A stretch of DNA of 64,000 nucleotides, taken from contig JAHIRF010000008.1 of the NCBI GenBank assembly GCA_018818785.1, positions 149,121 to 213,120 of the forward strand. The letters run 5' to 3'. The notes under the pieces were generated by a model, which made no database searches, was not told where the DNA came from, and saw only the letters and a list, made by a program, of their open reading frames with translations. Made by a program: the position numbers and the translations under genes. This DNA comes from Thermoplasmatota archaeon. GTDB taxonomy: Archaea; Thermoplasmatota; Thermoplasmata; UBA10834. This document shows positions 991 to 63,594 of the stretch, in pieces (the stretch's first letter is position 1; every line of letters begins with the position of its first letter).

Positions 991-3672
991 CTAACATAAC
1001 AATGTATTGCGCAATTTTGCGCATCCGTGTCCCATCGGGAGTAGCATCGTCTCTGCAGCCCTCAGCAACAGCTCCACATACGCGCTAGCATCGTATTCTT
1101 CGTATCCTGTGAGCAGGATCTCCGCCCTAACCCTCTCTTCTAGATCCTTGCTCTTCGAGGCTGTAATGACGTATCCTATGCACTCACCTGGCTTCACATC
1201 GATACCCTCGTCGCTCAGCTGGGACAACGCCGCGACAGAGTCGTTCAGCTGTGTGTATCCGTCGAGCGGTTTGGATACCTTCTTCGTGAGTACCAACTTA
1301 TTCATGGGGATTGTGCCCGATTTGATGTCATCGACATATCTTTCTATGACTTCCAATGCTGCTGGCACGAGCCTCTTCAAACCATCTGCGTCGTCCGCTT
1401 GAGAGAAACGATCGAGGACATCTGTCTGCATGTCCCTCACGATTCCTGGTGTGTCCCTGCGTCTCAACTCTATGCCCCTCAGCTTCAACTTCCCGTTCTC
1501 GAACATGCCGTAGTACCTGTTCAGGACGCCGACGCCGTTCGTCTTGTCAGGCAGGAACACGATCCATTTGTAAACCCCTTCGGGTTCGAGCGGTATGCCT
1601 ATGTGCCCGGAGGCATGCTCGCAGAACCTCTCAGGGTCCCCTGTGCCCTTGAGCCAAAGTGAGTCGACTATACCGTGGAGTATCTCGAACCCGTGGGCCT
1701 CGGCTATCTCGGATGCCTGGAGCAATATCTCCCTTCCGTAGGCGTTGATCGCCTCGTGACATTCTATTCGCCCGAACCTCGCGTTCTTGTATCCAGTATA
1801 TCCGAAACAGTTGTGCGTGAGTATCCCGTTGGAGAGAGCGAACCCGTGCATCGGTCCATCCACCGAGAAACAGTAGACGTGTCGGCCAGATGTCTCGGTC
1901 CTACTGACGGAATCTATCCTTACCTCGGACAGATGACGGCCCCTCCTCGCCTCTGGGTCGTAGAGCGGGAGTATTCGCGGGACCAGGTCTCCCGCGGCCA
2001 GCGAGTCCGCACGTCGCACCTCCAGCACACTGCCATCGAAAATGTAACTGGGATGGTCAGGAGTCACCACGATACGGTCCCCATCGATAGTAAGCTCCAC
2101 CATCTCCTCGGGCGCTTCGAATCTGAACGCGGTCACCGCTGATTTCATAGCGGGTTGCTGGTATCGGTCCAGGCCGAACAGGTTCAACGAACCTCTAACC
2201 CTGTGCTCGCCACACCCTCTTCCGGCCACCCTGTCGATGATGTCCCGTATCGCCTCGATCCCGAACCTGCCGTCGAGCTTGAACGGTATCTCCGTGGACC
2301 CGTCCAGGCAAGTCACAAGGAGCCATTTCAGTATGTCCACGCGCTCCTTGTAGTCTTTCGTGTCCCCTACGCCGTCCCTCACCCGCCTCTTCAGCGTCGT
2401 CCTGCGGTCGACCACTGGTTTCAGGACCCTAGGTATCAGCCCATGTCTCCTGTCGCATATGCCATATCCAAGCACGGGCACTCTCATGGATGGCTCGGGA
2501 CAGCAGGAGCACATGATCGTCTCGGGCGAGATGTTGAACTTGGCCATGATGTTCGGATAGAGCGATGTGAAGTCCACTTCGAGCACATGGTCATGGACGC
2601 CGACTACTGGCTCGTAGATGAACCCGCCCCTATCCGCCAATATCAACTCCTGCGCAGTCTTGAACCCCTCTGGCAGGTTCTTCTTCCACAGCACTACGCA
2701 TCCATCCTTGAGCGCCTGGTTCACTTCCATCGCGCTGATAGCGCTCCCGGGCGACAGACGCGCCAGCTCCTGGACAGGCACCGAAGATATCCTCGAGAGG
2801 TCGATAAGTCCGTTCAACCCACTCTCGACATACATGAACGAGCTGGTCTTGTCTATGTGGATTCGCCCTCTGAGCTTGTACGATGGTGGCTTGTACTTGA
2901 TCTGGCCATATGTGAAGTACGACTTGCCTCTCCTATCCGTGTTTAGGTCGTCATCGTCCCGACCGAGGCGCAGGCGGTCCATGCCAATCTGCTTGGCCTT
3001 GTTGTATAGGTAAGGTATGTCGAATATGTCTCCGAATTCTGTGCATATGATATCTGGATCGAGTCTGTCTAGGGTATCAACGACCCCTTTCAGTACCCGT
3101 TCCTCGTCTCCGTCTATCGTGGTGTCGCCCACCCTCGCGGATACGAGCTTGTCGTCCATGGCCGGCATCCTGTTCTTCGCAGCCACGGACACATTCAGTT
3201 CCGCGCTTGTCAACGGTGGCTTCTCGTAATCTAAGGCGAAGCGGTCGTCGAGCATGGCCGGTTTCGGCTTCAACTCCATCAGCCCGAGCGGGAAGATATC
3301 CTTCTCATGGAAGAACCGCTGGCTGAAACGCAGGTCTACGTTGAACAAAGAGTATCTCTTGTATTTTCCGCGATTGTCTATCGTGTGGGCGACGTCCTCT
3401 ATCCTCGAGAACTTCCTTATGCCGATGCCGAGCACCTCGCGCGGCTCCTCGCCCAACCAGGTACTCTTCATCTCGCGCTCAACATTCGCTACAGCGTCCA
3501 ATATCGGGAGCGCCTTCTCCAGCTCATCCATATCGTCTCTGGACGAGTGCGCGAATATCTTCGGCACGAACGAACGCTCGACGATCTTGTGCGCTCCCTT
3601 CCTGGTCTTGATCCAGTAGACGATGGAGTTGTCCTTGTAATCGGGATATATGTCGAGCAGCCAGCCCCTCAT
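991..3672 (-). CDS. polB: family-B DNA polymerase with an in-frame mini-intein
   Basis: An 893-residue precursor, or 726 after removal of the intein (residues 455-621). Replicative or repair DNA polymerase of the divergent B type seen in Thermoplasmata and Methanosarcina. Motif A is DFTSLYPN (367-374). Motif B after splicing is [20 protein letters not shown]. Motif C is HGIVDSLW (666-673), so the first Asp of the usual DTD is replaced while the catalytic D670 is kept. In the exonuclease region Exo I reads FNVDLRF (D113, with Arg at the usual Glu), Exo II keeps D218 (GDIFDIPYL) and no YxxxD Exo III is visible, so proofreading may be lost. The ATG at 3672 overlaps the stop of the upstream small gene by four bases, implying co-transcription with the RecA-like gene further upstream. 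Confidence 0.93.
   Translation of the reverse strand: [893 protein letters not shown]
1810..2310 (-). other. mini-intein inside polB (no homing endonuclease)
   Basis: A 167-residue insertion interrupts polymerase motif B between T454 and C622. It starts with C455 (block A, [9 protein letters not shown]). Block B contains T537 and H540 (TPDH). Block F is near 597-612 (HVYCFSVDG...HGFAL). It ends with block G GILTHN, followed by the +1 Cys, C622. The C1, TxxH, penultimate His, terminal Asn and +1 Cys needed for protein splicing are all present. The gap between blocks B and F is only about 55 residues and lacks LAGLIDADG or HNH motifs, so it is a splicing-only mini-intein at the motif-B (pol-b-like) site. 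Removing it restores a continuous [11 protein letters not shown]. Confidence 0.93.
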
Positions 3673-3968
3673 CTATCGGACTCACCGCTCCAAACACTCC
3701 CATCCTCTTCCGAGCATTCGTTCTTCTTCCTCAGGGCGAGCAACTCTTTCTCGTGTTCCAGGAGCATCGAGAGCAGAGCGGACTCCGTCGGGTCCATGCT
3801 TATCGCGTATGTCGCAGCAGAGGCGTGCATGCGGGCCCTGTTCATCAGCGAGTCGAAAGCCACCCTGTCATCCTTCCTCAGCGCCCTTCTGAAATCGTTC
3901 CATTGCCTGGCCATCGCCTCAAGTGCTAGGCGATATGTAGGCACCGTCCTCCCCGTCGTGATCACCAC
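3669..3968 (-). CDS. small DUF8156-like protein encoded with polB
   Basis: A 99-residue hydrophilic protein. The N-terminal GRTVPTYRLALEAM, the central WNDFRRALRKDD.VAFD.L...AR.HA.AA.Y and the LL.ML.EHEKEL helix resemble a small archaeal family I know from haloarchaea (DUF8156), whose members start with a similar GRTNPTYR motif. No function is established. Its stop overlaps the polB ATG by four bases (ATGA) and its start lies inside the end of the RecA-like gene, so the three genes form one transcription unit. The start is a GTG at 3968 without a clear ribosome-binding site; a downstream start would lose the conserved GRT motif. The helical, charged make-up suggests a protein-interaction role with the polymerase (inference). 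Confidence 0.7.
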   Translation of the reverse strand: MVITTGRTVPTYRLALEAMARQWNDFRRALRKDDRVAFDSLMNRARMHASAATYAISMDPTESALLSMLLEHEKELLALRKKNECSEEDGSVWSGESDR

Positions 3969-4560
3969 CGTACTCGTCTAACGTGGACTGGTTCCACGGG
4001 ACCGGATGGAATAGTGTGGACCTCCCCTCCTTTGGTAGATTGAAGACGGTCCCATCCTTCTTCTCTTTCATGTGGATGACGCGATCAGCCTGGACGCGTA
4101 TCAGCGCAGTCAGCCTGTTGTCCGTTCTACCATATCCCGCGGTGTGGTCCGTGACGAAAGATATGGTCTCATGCTCCTGGGTCATCCTCCTTATGTCGTC
4201 TACGCACCTCCTCAGTAACTGGTACGATTCCGCCCACTTCATGTCCTTGTCCTGGAAGAGGTCTGTGAGCGACGACACTATTACCACAGCAGGAGTGCTC
4301 TCGATGATCTCCTGCTCGAGCTTTTCATCTATGAGCGTGACGAGTTGGTATGCCGTGAACGCCCGCGAGATGTTCACCCTGGAGAGCACATCCCTCTTGT
4401 CCATGCGCATCTTCTTGCACAGGGCGCTTATCGAGTACGGATCGACCGTGTTCCCGCCGTCGATCCACACGACCTCCTCGTCGAACTCATGCACCGCTTT
4501 GACGCATAGTAGATGAAGTAGGGTGGACGCGTAGCCCGTATCCCCCTCGAACAGTACCAA
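3919..4560 (-). CDS. RecA-superfamily protein with degenerate Walker motifs (5' end uncertain)
   Basis: A RadB/KaiC-like RecA-fold protein encoded upstream of polB. The coordinates use the longest ORF with an accepted start (TTG 4560), but the same frame stays coding-like upstream to about 4719 and encodes the usual pre-P-loop segment APLDRLVGGF. The true protein is therefore longer. The P-loop reads GDTGYAST where RecA proteins have GxxxxGK[ST], so the catalytic Lys is missing. The Walker B strand reads VVIVSSLTDLF, lacking the Asp. A VVWIDGGN segment matches the DxGN/DTE strand of this fold. ATP hydrolysis is therefore unlikely, and a structural or regulatory role with the polymerase is plausible (inference). 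It overlaps the DUF8156-like gene by 50 bases. Confidence 0.8.
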   Translation of the reverse strand: MVLFEGDTGYASTLLHLLCVKAVHEFDEEVVWIDGGNTVDPYSISALCKKMRMDKRDVLSRVNISRAFTAYQLVTLIDEKLEQEIIESTPAVVIVSSLTDLFQDKDMKWAESYQLLRRCVDDIRRMTQEHETISFVTDHTAGYGRTDNRLTALIRVQADRVIHMKEKKDGTVFNLPKEGRSTLFHPVPWNQSTLDEYGGDHDGEDGAYISPST

Positions 4561-4940: not shown

Positions 4941-5006
4941 TCCATAGCATGCTCTTTAGCGATAGTCCAGCAGCTGAAAGGGACTGGCCCGGAAGAGTTG
5001 AGATAT

Positions 5007-7859
5007 ATGGCGCCCAGATCGACTAAGAAGAAATCATCTGCGGCGACTGCGCCAAAGATCACTTCACGAGTCCGTGACAAGTATTCTAGTGATATCGAAG
5101 CCTCAGAGGCACCAAGGTCCAGGAAGGCAGCGATGCTCCAACTGAGGATGGGGCGGTTGGCACATGTCCTGGGCATAGCATCCGGACTCGCTCTGGCCGT
5201 CACCGCGGTCCTCGCATATCTTCTGGAGAACTGGAGCTATCTCACGGACGCTCCCGAGTTCGTGACCGCGTTGAAATGGGTGGTCCCGCTCGTCGGAGGC
5301 CTGGCCGTTGCAATAGTCGCGATAGCGATGAAGTGGGAGCCGTACTTCGCGGACCGCACAGACCCGCATTTCATAATGAGCGCCGCATCGGTCGCGGTGC
5401 CCTCGGTTCTGATTGCCCTAGTGGCCCTAGACGAGGGCGGGTACATCGCCATTGGTCGGCCAGATTGGCTCTATTCCGTATCGTTGCTCGGCATGAGCTT
5501 AACCTTGATCTCATTGGCGATGACCTGGGAAGGCACCAGTCGTCGCAAGATAATCAGCATAGCATCCGCGGTGTTCCCTCCAGTCCTTCTGATATTCCCC
5601 ATGTTGTTCAGATTCACCCCGCTCGAGCTGGCCAGCATACTGCCCATGGCATACCTGGGCAGCGCGGTGTCGATCCAGTTGAGCGGTTCGATGCTCCACA
5701 TAATCGCGAGCTCCACGAACGTCCAGGAGCGCGAGGTCCTGAAGGCGAGCGACGGGAAGCTCAAGATGATCATAGTGGACGTCGAGAAGCGCAAGGAGGC
5801 GCTCGAGTACAGAGAGGACGCGCTACGTTCAAGGGAATCGGACCTGGAGGCCTACGAGAAGCGTCTGTCCGAGGAGCTGGCATCGATCGATGACGGAAAG
5901 CGGCAGATTGAGTCTATGGAAGCGGAGCTCCAGCAGCGCATCAATCAATCCAGACGAGCAGCCGAGGAGCTTGCGCGGAAGGATGTCGATAACGAGGGCA
6001 AGCTGGACACATTGCGCTTGATGCAGGCAGACATCGACGTGCAGAAGAATACGCTCGATAAATCGCTCAAATTGATATCGTCCAAAGAACAGAAGTTGGC
6101 GGCAAGGGAAGCAGAGGCCGAGAAGGTGCTCCTGGACGTACACGCTAAGGAGCGCGATGCCCGAGCGAAGTTCGGCGACGCCGGAGCTCAGGAGGCCGAG
6201 CTCGAGCTGTGGGCGAAGGAACTTGACGCGCTGAAAAGATCTCTCGCGGAAAGGGAGAAGCATCTGAGCATGAGGGAGAACTCCCTCGACATGAAGAGCG
6301 TGGAACTCATCGCAGCGAAGGAACAGCTGGGCAAGGTCGCAGCAGAGAGGAACATAGTTAAGAGCATCGAGCAGCAGCTCCTGCTGAAGCAGGAATCTGT
6401 CGCCGAGAAAGAGATCTCTCTACGGGAGAAAGAGACCTCGCTCAGGATGGCCTCTGAGCGCGCACAAAGGCTGATAGAACGCTCGGACAAACAGATGAAC
6501 GAGCTAGTAGACAAGGAGAATACATTACTCAAGCGCGAGAAAGCCTTCGCAGACCGGGAAGCGGAGCTGAGGAACTCGATGAGCAAGCTCAATACCCAGC
6601 TGGAGGAGATCGAGCGAGCGAAGGATTCCGCGGGCGAGAGGGAGAAGCAATACCTGTCACTTTCCGAGAACACCAGGACCAAGATCGCCAGCGTATCAGC
6701 AAAGGAGCAGGAGCTCAGCAGGAAGATGGCCGCCCTCGAGAGACGCGAGTCGAGCATCAAGGACCTGGAGCAACGGATCAGGGCCGAGCAGGAACAGATG
6801 AACTCGAAGTTGAGGACTCTGCTCGAGAGGGAGAAGGGTCTGAAGGCTGACGAAACGAAGATGACACTCAGGAGCGCAGAGCTGAAGGCCCGTGAGAGGG
6901 ACATGCTCCGGTCGGTCGAGGATGTCGAGAGTGCGCGTGCCGAGATATCACCTGCAGATGATCATTCAAAAACGATAGAGCTGCGCGAGAGACGCCTTCG
7001 GGAGAAGGAGCACGAGATGAAGGCCCGGCTCTACCAGCGTGAGAAGGAGCTGGAGAACCGCGAGCACGCCCTTCAAGCGCATCTGATGAAAGACCTGGAC
7101 GAGAGCACGGAGGTACAGGAGGAGCAGAAGGAGGCGAAGGTCAAGACAGGCATAGAACGTCTGGACGATCTGCTGCTCGGTGGTATGCCGTTCGGGTCCA
7201 ACATCCTGTTCGCAGGTCCGCCGTTCATAGGCAAGGAGACCGCCATGCTTCTGTTCATAGCCGAGGGACTGAAGAAAGGTGTGCCGGTCATGATCGTGAC
7301 CACCTCCAAGCCGCCAGTCGAGATAGCCAAGGACATGGCTCCGATAATGCCCACATTCATGGAATTCGAGCAGCTGGGTCTTGTGAGATGGATCGACGCT
7401 ACAGGTCTTCCGATAGATCCGAACAGCCGCAGGAGCAATGTCTTCAAGACGAAAGGTCAGGACGATTTCGATGGCATCCTGAAAGGTCTGGACGAATCCG
7501 TCAAACTGTCCATGTCCAGCGGGAAATCATACTTCAGGTTGGCGTATTTGTCGCTCTCTATGAGCATCACAGGCAAGGATGATAAGCGGTCGTTCCAGTT
7601 CGTGCAGGAGTTGACCAGCAAGGTCCGTCAACATCAGGCAGTGGCCTCTTTCGCCGTGGAGAAAGGAATGCACACCGACCAGCAGCTAAACTCGATCCAG
7701 CATCAGATGACGGGCGCGGTCCACTTCAAGAGCGAGAAACAGAAGACTCTGTTGAGTATCGAGGGGATATGTGATGCCCAGACACGGGGCTGGATCGATT
7801 ACAGGCACACGAACAAGGCAATCCTTATGGGAGCATTTTCACTCGAGAGGATAAGATAA
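5007..7859 (+). CDS. membrane protein with long coiled coil and C-terminal KaiC/RecA-like ATPase domain
   Basis: About 950 residues. A basic N-terminal tail of about 40 residues is followed by a hydrophobic region of six or seven probable membrane segments (to about residue 235). A very long charged coiled coil follows (about 245-690, rich in Glu/Lys/Arg with repeated EREKxL-type heptads). A C-terminal KaiC/RAD55-like domain runs from about 712 (KTGIERLDDLLLGG). Its P-loop GPPFIGKET (about 737-745) keeps the Lys, but the Walker B strand (RLAYLSLSMSI) has no Asp. The architecture suggests a membrane-anchored, rod-like protein positioning a nucleotide-binding head; the partner is unknown. ATG 5007 is chosen over TTG 4998 because GGAAGAG is nine bases before it. 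It stands alone behind its own promoter. Confidence 0.75.
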   Translation: MAPRSTKKKSSAATAPKITSRVRDKYSSDIEASEAPRSRKAAMLQLRMGRLAHVLGIASGLALAVTAVLAYLLENWSYLTDAPEFVTALKWVVPLVGGLAVAIVAIAMKWEPYFADRTDPHFIMSAASVAVPSVLIALVALDEGGYIAIGRPDWLYSVSLLGMSLTLISLAMTWEGTSRRKIISIASAVFPPVLLIFPMLFRFTPLELASILPMAYLGSAVSIQLSGSMLHIIASSTNVQEREVLKASDGKLKMIIVDVEKRKEALEYREDALRSRESDLEAYEKRLSEELASIDDGKRQIESMEAELQQRINQSRRAAEELARKDVDNEGKLDTLRLMQADIDVQKNTLDKSLKLISSKEQKLAAREAEAEKVLLDVHAKERDARAKFGDAGAQEAELELWAKELDALKRSLAEREKHLSMRENSLDMKSVELIAAKEQLGKVAAERNIVKSIEQQLLLKQESVAEKEISLREKETSLRMASERAQRLIERSDKQMNELVDKENTLLKREKAFADREAELRNSMSKLNTQLEEIERAKDSAGEREKQYLSLSENTRTKIASVSAKEQELSRKMAALERRESSIKDLEQRIRAEQEQMNSKLRTLLEREKGLKADETKMTLRSAELKARERDMLRSVEDVESARAEISPADDHSKTIELRERRLREKEHEMKARLYQREKELENREHALQAHLMKDLDESTEVQEEQKEAKVKTGIERLDDLLLGGMPFGSNILFAGPPFIGKETAMLLFIAEGLKKGVPVMIVTTSKPPVEIAKDMAPIMPTFMEFEQLGLVRWIDATGLPIDPNSRRSNVFKTKGQDDFDGILKGLDESVKLSMSSGKSYFRLAYLSLSMSITGKDDKRSFQFVQELTSKVRQHQAVASFAVEKGMHTDQQLNSIQHQMTGAVHFKSEKQKTLLSIEGICDAQTRGWIDYRHTNKAILMGAFSLERIR

Positions 7860-62126: not shown

Positions 62127-63594
<1,468 letters not shown>

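Follow-up and report, generated by a model that had tools for sequence, protein, structure and literature searches.

In the window, by which we mean the whole 64-kb stretch of DNA that was analysed, positions 5007..7859 of the plus strand encode a protein of 950 amino acids (aa) that consists of a membrane domain, a coiled-coil rod and a KaiC-type head. As the start codon we favour the ATG at 5007 over the mechanically assigned TTG at 4998, since several orthologues begin with MAPR at an equivalent ATG. The orthologues in the same family (f1) have the same full length and contain no internal stops. The original prediction had been unable to match this architecture to a named family, and our searches agree with it: no family in Pfam or NCBIfam extends over the full length of the protein, and NCBIfam has no model covering it.

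The membrane domain (approximately aa 41-239, positions 5127..5723, plus strand) was delimited by hydropathy and an alignment of 17 homologues. Hydropathy analysis finds six hydrophobic segments within approximately aa 55-230, of which the sixth is weaker, and an AlphaFold2 (AF2) model of this part, although of low confidence (pLDDT 59), likewise has six helices, with the last one continuing into the rod. Of the six or seven membrane segments originally proposed, we thus retain six and discard the seventh. The domain carries the motif xALLQLxxGRxAH ... SGSxLHxIxSxTxxQERE and can be aligned across families f1, f15 and f10, in which LQLxxGRxA and one His-Phe pair are invariant. A basic N-terminus and the TWEGTSRRK loop are compatible with an N-in/C-in topology, and from these loop charges the positive-inside rule predicts that the N-terminus and the rod are cytoplasmic. 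The domain has no Pfam match above the cut-off and no sequence match in the PDB. OppC-type oligopeptide permease proteins of the same family (L177:3233-5431, L178:2944-5145 and L179:2545-4170) contain segments that are related to it, with E-values down to 6e-41, raising the possibility that it is a membrane module used more than once.

The rod (approximately aa 240-711, positions 5724..7139, plus strand) comprises 472 residues, which at 0.15 nm per residue corresponds to a length of about 70 nm. Its strongest hydrophobic period is exactly 3.50, with a power of 2.83, while none of 300 shuffles exceeds 2.37. This period runs throughout the rod, with weaker heptad periodicity at roughly aa 340-450, and aa 227-700 include a single proline. 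The coiled coil of about 450 residues that had been predicted is therefore borne out, at about 470 residues. A hendecad coil was also considered and rejected, as the power at a period of 3.667 is near zero. Among the f1 orthologues, the membrane domain and head are 61-75% identical and the rod is 46-62% identical; despite this level of rod identity, the rod and linker together span 489-492 residues in each of nine f1 sequences (two of them from one genome). The rods of family f10 are shorter, at 421-450 residues.

The head (aa 712-950, positions 7140..7856, plus strand) matches the KaiC model PF06745 (6.8e-12; 45.7 bits, above the curated cut-off of 26.6), and its match to DUF7504 (PF24336), at 22.3-23.7 bits, lies below the curated cut-off of 27. 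Profile searches of the PDB match it to KaiC, PH0284 and SSO2452, and an AF2 model (core pLDDT approximately 85-92) has the RecA/KaiC fold. The original prediction described a RecA/KaiC-like domain with a Walker A motif but no Walker B Asp. The fold and the loss of Walker B are both supported, but Walker A is not intact: it reads GPPFIGKE (7215..7238, plus strand), with Glu in place of the Ser/Thr that should follow the GK, as it does in all 19 anchored heads and in 46 of 59 soluble heads. The Walker B position (YFRLAYLSLS, 7530..7559, plus strand) has Ser instead of the standard Asp. None of the 19 anchored heads has this Asp, which several stand-alone heads from other families retain in the form FDSLS. 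With the Walker A Ser/Thr replaced by Glu and the Walker B Asp gone, the anchored head is probably a pseudo-ATPase, although its conserved Gly-Lys could still bind nucleotide. Despite the lost catalytic residues, it is strongly conserved up to its final residues, GSFxLxxI[RK].

The source genome encodes one close paralogue of this head, which is 38% identical to it and belongs to a soluble protein. This second protein starts with a zinc-ribbon-like region, followed by an HHH_5 domain (6.8e-14), a coiled coil and a head of the same kind, and it matches DUF7504 with 54.1 bits, above the cut-off of 27. The Walker B Asp is gone from both paralogues, as for the most part is the Walker A Ser/Thr, yet the heads of both are strongly conserved. 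In searches of solved structures, the helix-hairpin-helix (HhH) region of the soluble paralogue resembles the N-terminal domain of archaeal RadA (about 1e-5). It matches ribosomal protein eL32 as strongly, and DNA binding by this region is thus likely but not certain; HhH domains can also have RNA or protein as ligands. Several soluble homologues, e.g. those at L060 and L061, have no recognizable HhH domain. The genes for the anchored and soluble versions lie on different contigs in the source genome and were not found as neighbours elsewhere. Genus g24, in which the membrane version is missing, has a tandem of two overlapping head genes (L064), and in family f9 there are two soluble proteins that share the head but have different N-termini. 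Heads thus recur in pairs with differing adaptors. The second f9 protein (L066:6106-8157 and L068:5895-7760) is distinct in its N-terminal region, which is about 250 residues long and gives no match in Pfam.

We surveyed 349 genomes of the class Thermoplasmata with a completeness of at least 80%. Of these, 88, from families f1, f2, f10, f15 and f56-f59, have the membrane domain, and 225 have the family head. A separate soluble head is present in approximately 79 of the 88 genomes with the membrane domain, compared to a head in 140 of the 261 genomes without it (Fisher p = 1.6e-10, a value that overstates the association because the genomes are related). The figure of 79 is a manual tally in which two head matches per genome were mostly counted as one anchored and one soluble head, with some of the cases inspected, and it includes four genomes (G009, G342, G463 and G474) in which the anchored head appears to be cut by a contig end. 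Nine genomes with the membrane domain have no normal soluble head (G015, G207, G356, G360, G362, G377, G174, G382 and G475), and some of these exceptions may be assembly gaps. Three of the nine (G356, G360 and G174) have no family head at all, and their membrane proteins, of 409-539 aa, are headless with a shortened coil (L163:2676-3902, L164:1129-2745 and L165:2818-4047). Apart from these three derived cases, homologues keep the head, so that neither a loss of the ATPase domain among homologues nor a full-length named family speaks against the predicted architecture. Degraded head matches are found in G362 and G377, and five genomes (G015, G207, G362, G377 and G382) still have a good anchored head although a normal soluble partner is missing. 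When 86 heads are placed in a tree, the 19 anchored proteins group together in a single clade (support 100/100), which indicates that the membrane version and the soluble one are stable paralogues of long standing, each with its own adaptor.

The best structural matches of the head model are PH0284 (2dr3, Z 21.6) and SSO2452 (2w0m, Z 20.4), with KaiC at a Z of about 20. Both PH0284 and SSO2452, the latter of which we take to be a RadA paralogue, are solved RecA-superfamily proteins, but they consist of a single domain and have neither anchor nor rod. The RecA fold is also shared with the Elongator subunits Elp456 (4a8j, Z 18.7), and the PAXNEB model gives a weak match to the anchored protein that is below its cut-off (3.8e-06). 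Elp456 forms a mixed hexameric ring of RecA-fold paralogues, but belongs to a eukaryotic tRNA-modification complex and lacks membrane and HhH parts. SMC proteins similarly combine a head with a long coiled coil, and a role in chromosome organization may be common to both, but the SMC head is of the ABC type and the one described here is of the KaiC/RecA type; the SMC model TIGR02168 scores 21.5 bits against the 567 needed, reflecting only weak coiled-coil similarity. We also considered that the anchored protein might replace SMC, and rejected this since the source genome encodes SMC elsewhere (an SMC hinge is found at another locus).

The head itself is of a known kind. Archaea widely encode KaiC-like proteins; one of these is ArlH (FlaH) of the archaellum, which acts together with ArlI, a motor ATPase of the T2SSE type (PMC8978795). 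ArlH (4yds) is among the top Foldseek matches of our head, but is small, soluble and ATP-binding, and the anchored protein shows no link to the archaellum. Relatives of the head on haloarchaeal plasmids are annotated as hypothetical. The anchored protein has its head sequence and fold in common with the archaeal KaiC-like ATPases (PF06745) and DUF7504 proteins, and differs from them in that it lacks the catalytic residues and combines the head with a membrane domain and a long rod. Our literature searches found no description of this architecture, which may nevertheless have been mentioned in a 2017 mBio review of archaeal KaiC-like proteins. We therefore treat the combination of membrane domain, rod and apparently inactive head as a variant of the known KaiC-like/DUF7504 kind that was not met in the literature searched.

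The original prediction suggested that the protein could link DNA, or some other partner, to the membrane. This idea can now be put more specifically, since a second protein in the genome combines a paralogous head with a RadA-like HhH domain, and since the soluble version accompanies the membrane version in most genomes that have the latter. The two proteins together have the layout of a two-part tether, with a membrane anchor in one partner and a DNA-binding-type domain (HHH_5) in the other. The six helices would fix the anchored protein in the cytoplasmic membrane, and the fixed-length rod would extend about 70 nm into the cytoplasm. At the tip of the rod, the head, apparently unable to hydrolyse ATP, would serve as a coupling module that pairs, or forms a mixed ring, with the head of the soluble paralogue via the RecA-type oligomer interface. 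At the other end of the second coiled coil, DNA would be bound by the paralogue's zinc ribbon and RadA-like HhH domain, and the chromosome would thereby be tethered to the membrane. Judged from sequence, it is a tentative but leading proposal that the two kinds of head, anchored and soluble, assemble together and act as couplers, which would tie DNA on the soluble partner to the membrane. We are more hesitant about the fuller statement that, in archaea that possess SMC as well, inactive RecA/KaiC heads on a membrane rod and an HhH rod couple and thereby link the chromosome to the membrane, which might perhaps be the case.

The mixed ring of Elp456, which is also a structural match of the head, provides a precedent for the joining of RecA-fold paralogues. 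Moreover, the occurrence of headless membrane proteins in genomes without any family head is what one would predict for a head whose function is to bind a second head of the family. Counted against the coupling of the two proteins are the lack of gene linkage between them, the five genomes with an intact anchored head but no normal partner, the ambiguous ligand of the HhH domain and the soluble homologues that lack this domain. The attachment and positioning of the chromosome at the membrane is a largely open question in archaea, and a conserved pair of paralogues that share an apparently inactive RecA-type head, with a membrane anchor on one and a DNA-binding-type domain on the other, makes it testable with two genes. 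If true, our proposal would be a clear case of a RecA fold put to new use as a coupler and not as a motor.

Among the alternatives, the one that survives best, although we consider it unlikely, is a membrane-linked signalling hub, in which the head would sense a nucleotide state or phosphorylation and recruit an output protein such as a type IV pilus motor, with the coil as a spacer and DNA uninvolved. Archaeal KaiC-like proteins are widespread and, in the title of a 2017 mBio paper cited in PMC6393860 and PMC8978795, are proposed as signalling hubs. Two pairs of T2SSE (type II/IV secretion ATPase) and T2SSF genes (L047:10722-16000) lie downstream of the f1 soluble paralogue, as would suit a head that, like ArlH, has a T2SSE-type partner. 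However, this pilus-type neighbourhood is confined to f1, the neighbours in other families looking unrelated, and a sensor of this kind is difficult to reconcile with the loss of the head's catalytic residues and leaves the HhH domain of the paralogue unexplained. An improbable alternative is a membrane cytoskeleton or scaffold of rods packed side by side under the membrane, with the heads as rings or a lattice for mechanical support or spacing and the soluble paralogue as a cross-linker. The long heptad rod of fixed length, the membrane anchor and the oligomer-type head fold would all fit, but the HhH domain and zinc ribbon of the paralogue are not accounted for, and most of the class has no membrane version. 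For a role in cell shape, which the original prediction had also mentioned, we found nothing in support.

Less probable again is that the protein anchors a replication or repair factory, holding replication or recombination machinery at the membrane. In several f1 genomes its gene is flanked by one for a family B DNA polymerase (polB), with a RadA/Rad51-like gene between the two, and both the head and the HhH domain of the partner are RecA/RadA-like. These flanking genes are, however, transcribed divergently, and the linkage is found only within f1, being absent at the f15 and f10 loci examined, so that there is no conserved operon. That an ordinary membrane protein was by chance fused to a decaying KaiC remnant is hardly credible despite the degenerate ATP site, as conservation already contradicts it: 19 proteins from several families have the same architecture, their heads are 61-74% identical within f1, and they form a single clade.

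Some features of the neighbouring genes are worth recording. Directly downstream of the soluble paralogue, and convergent with it, several families have a gene for a 145-aa protein (family F7; L047:8832-9269, minus strand) with no Pfam match, which we presume to resemble SecB-like proteins. Within the 64-kb window, no tRNA was found by ARAGORN and no RNA family by Rfam other than an archaeal 16S rRNA gene (62127-63594, minus strand). The RadA/Rad51-like protein (3919-4560, minus strand, with a frame open upstream to approximately 4690) has a degenerate Walker A motif, GDTGYAST. The polymerase (991-3672, minus strand) contains an apparent in-frame mini-intein (CLDGSTEI...GILTHNC), whose match to Intein_splicing is below the cut-off.
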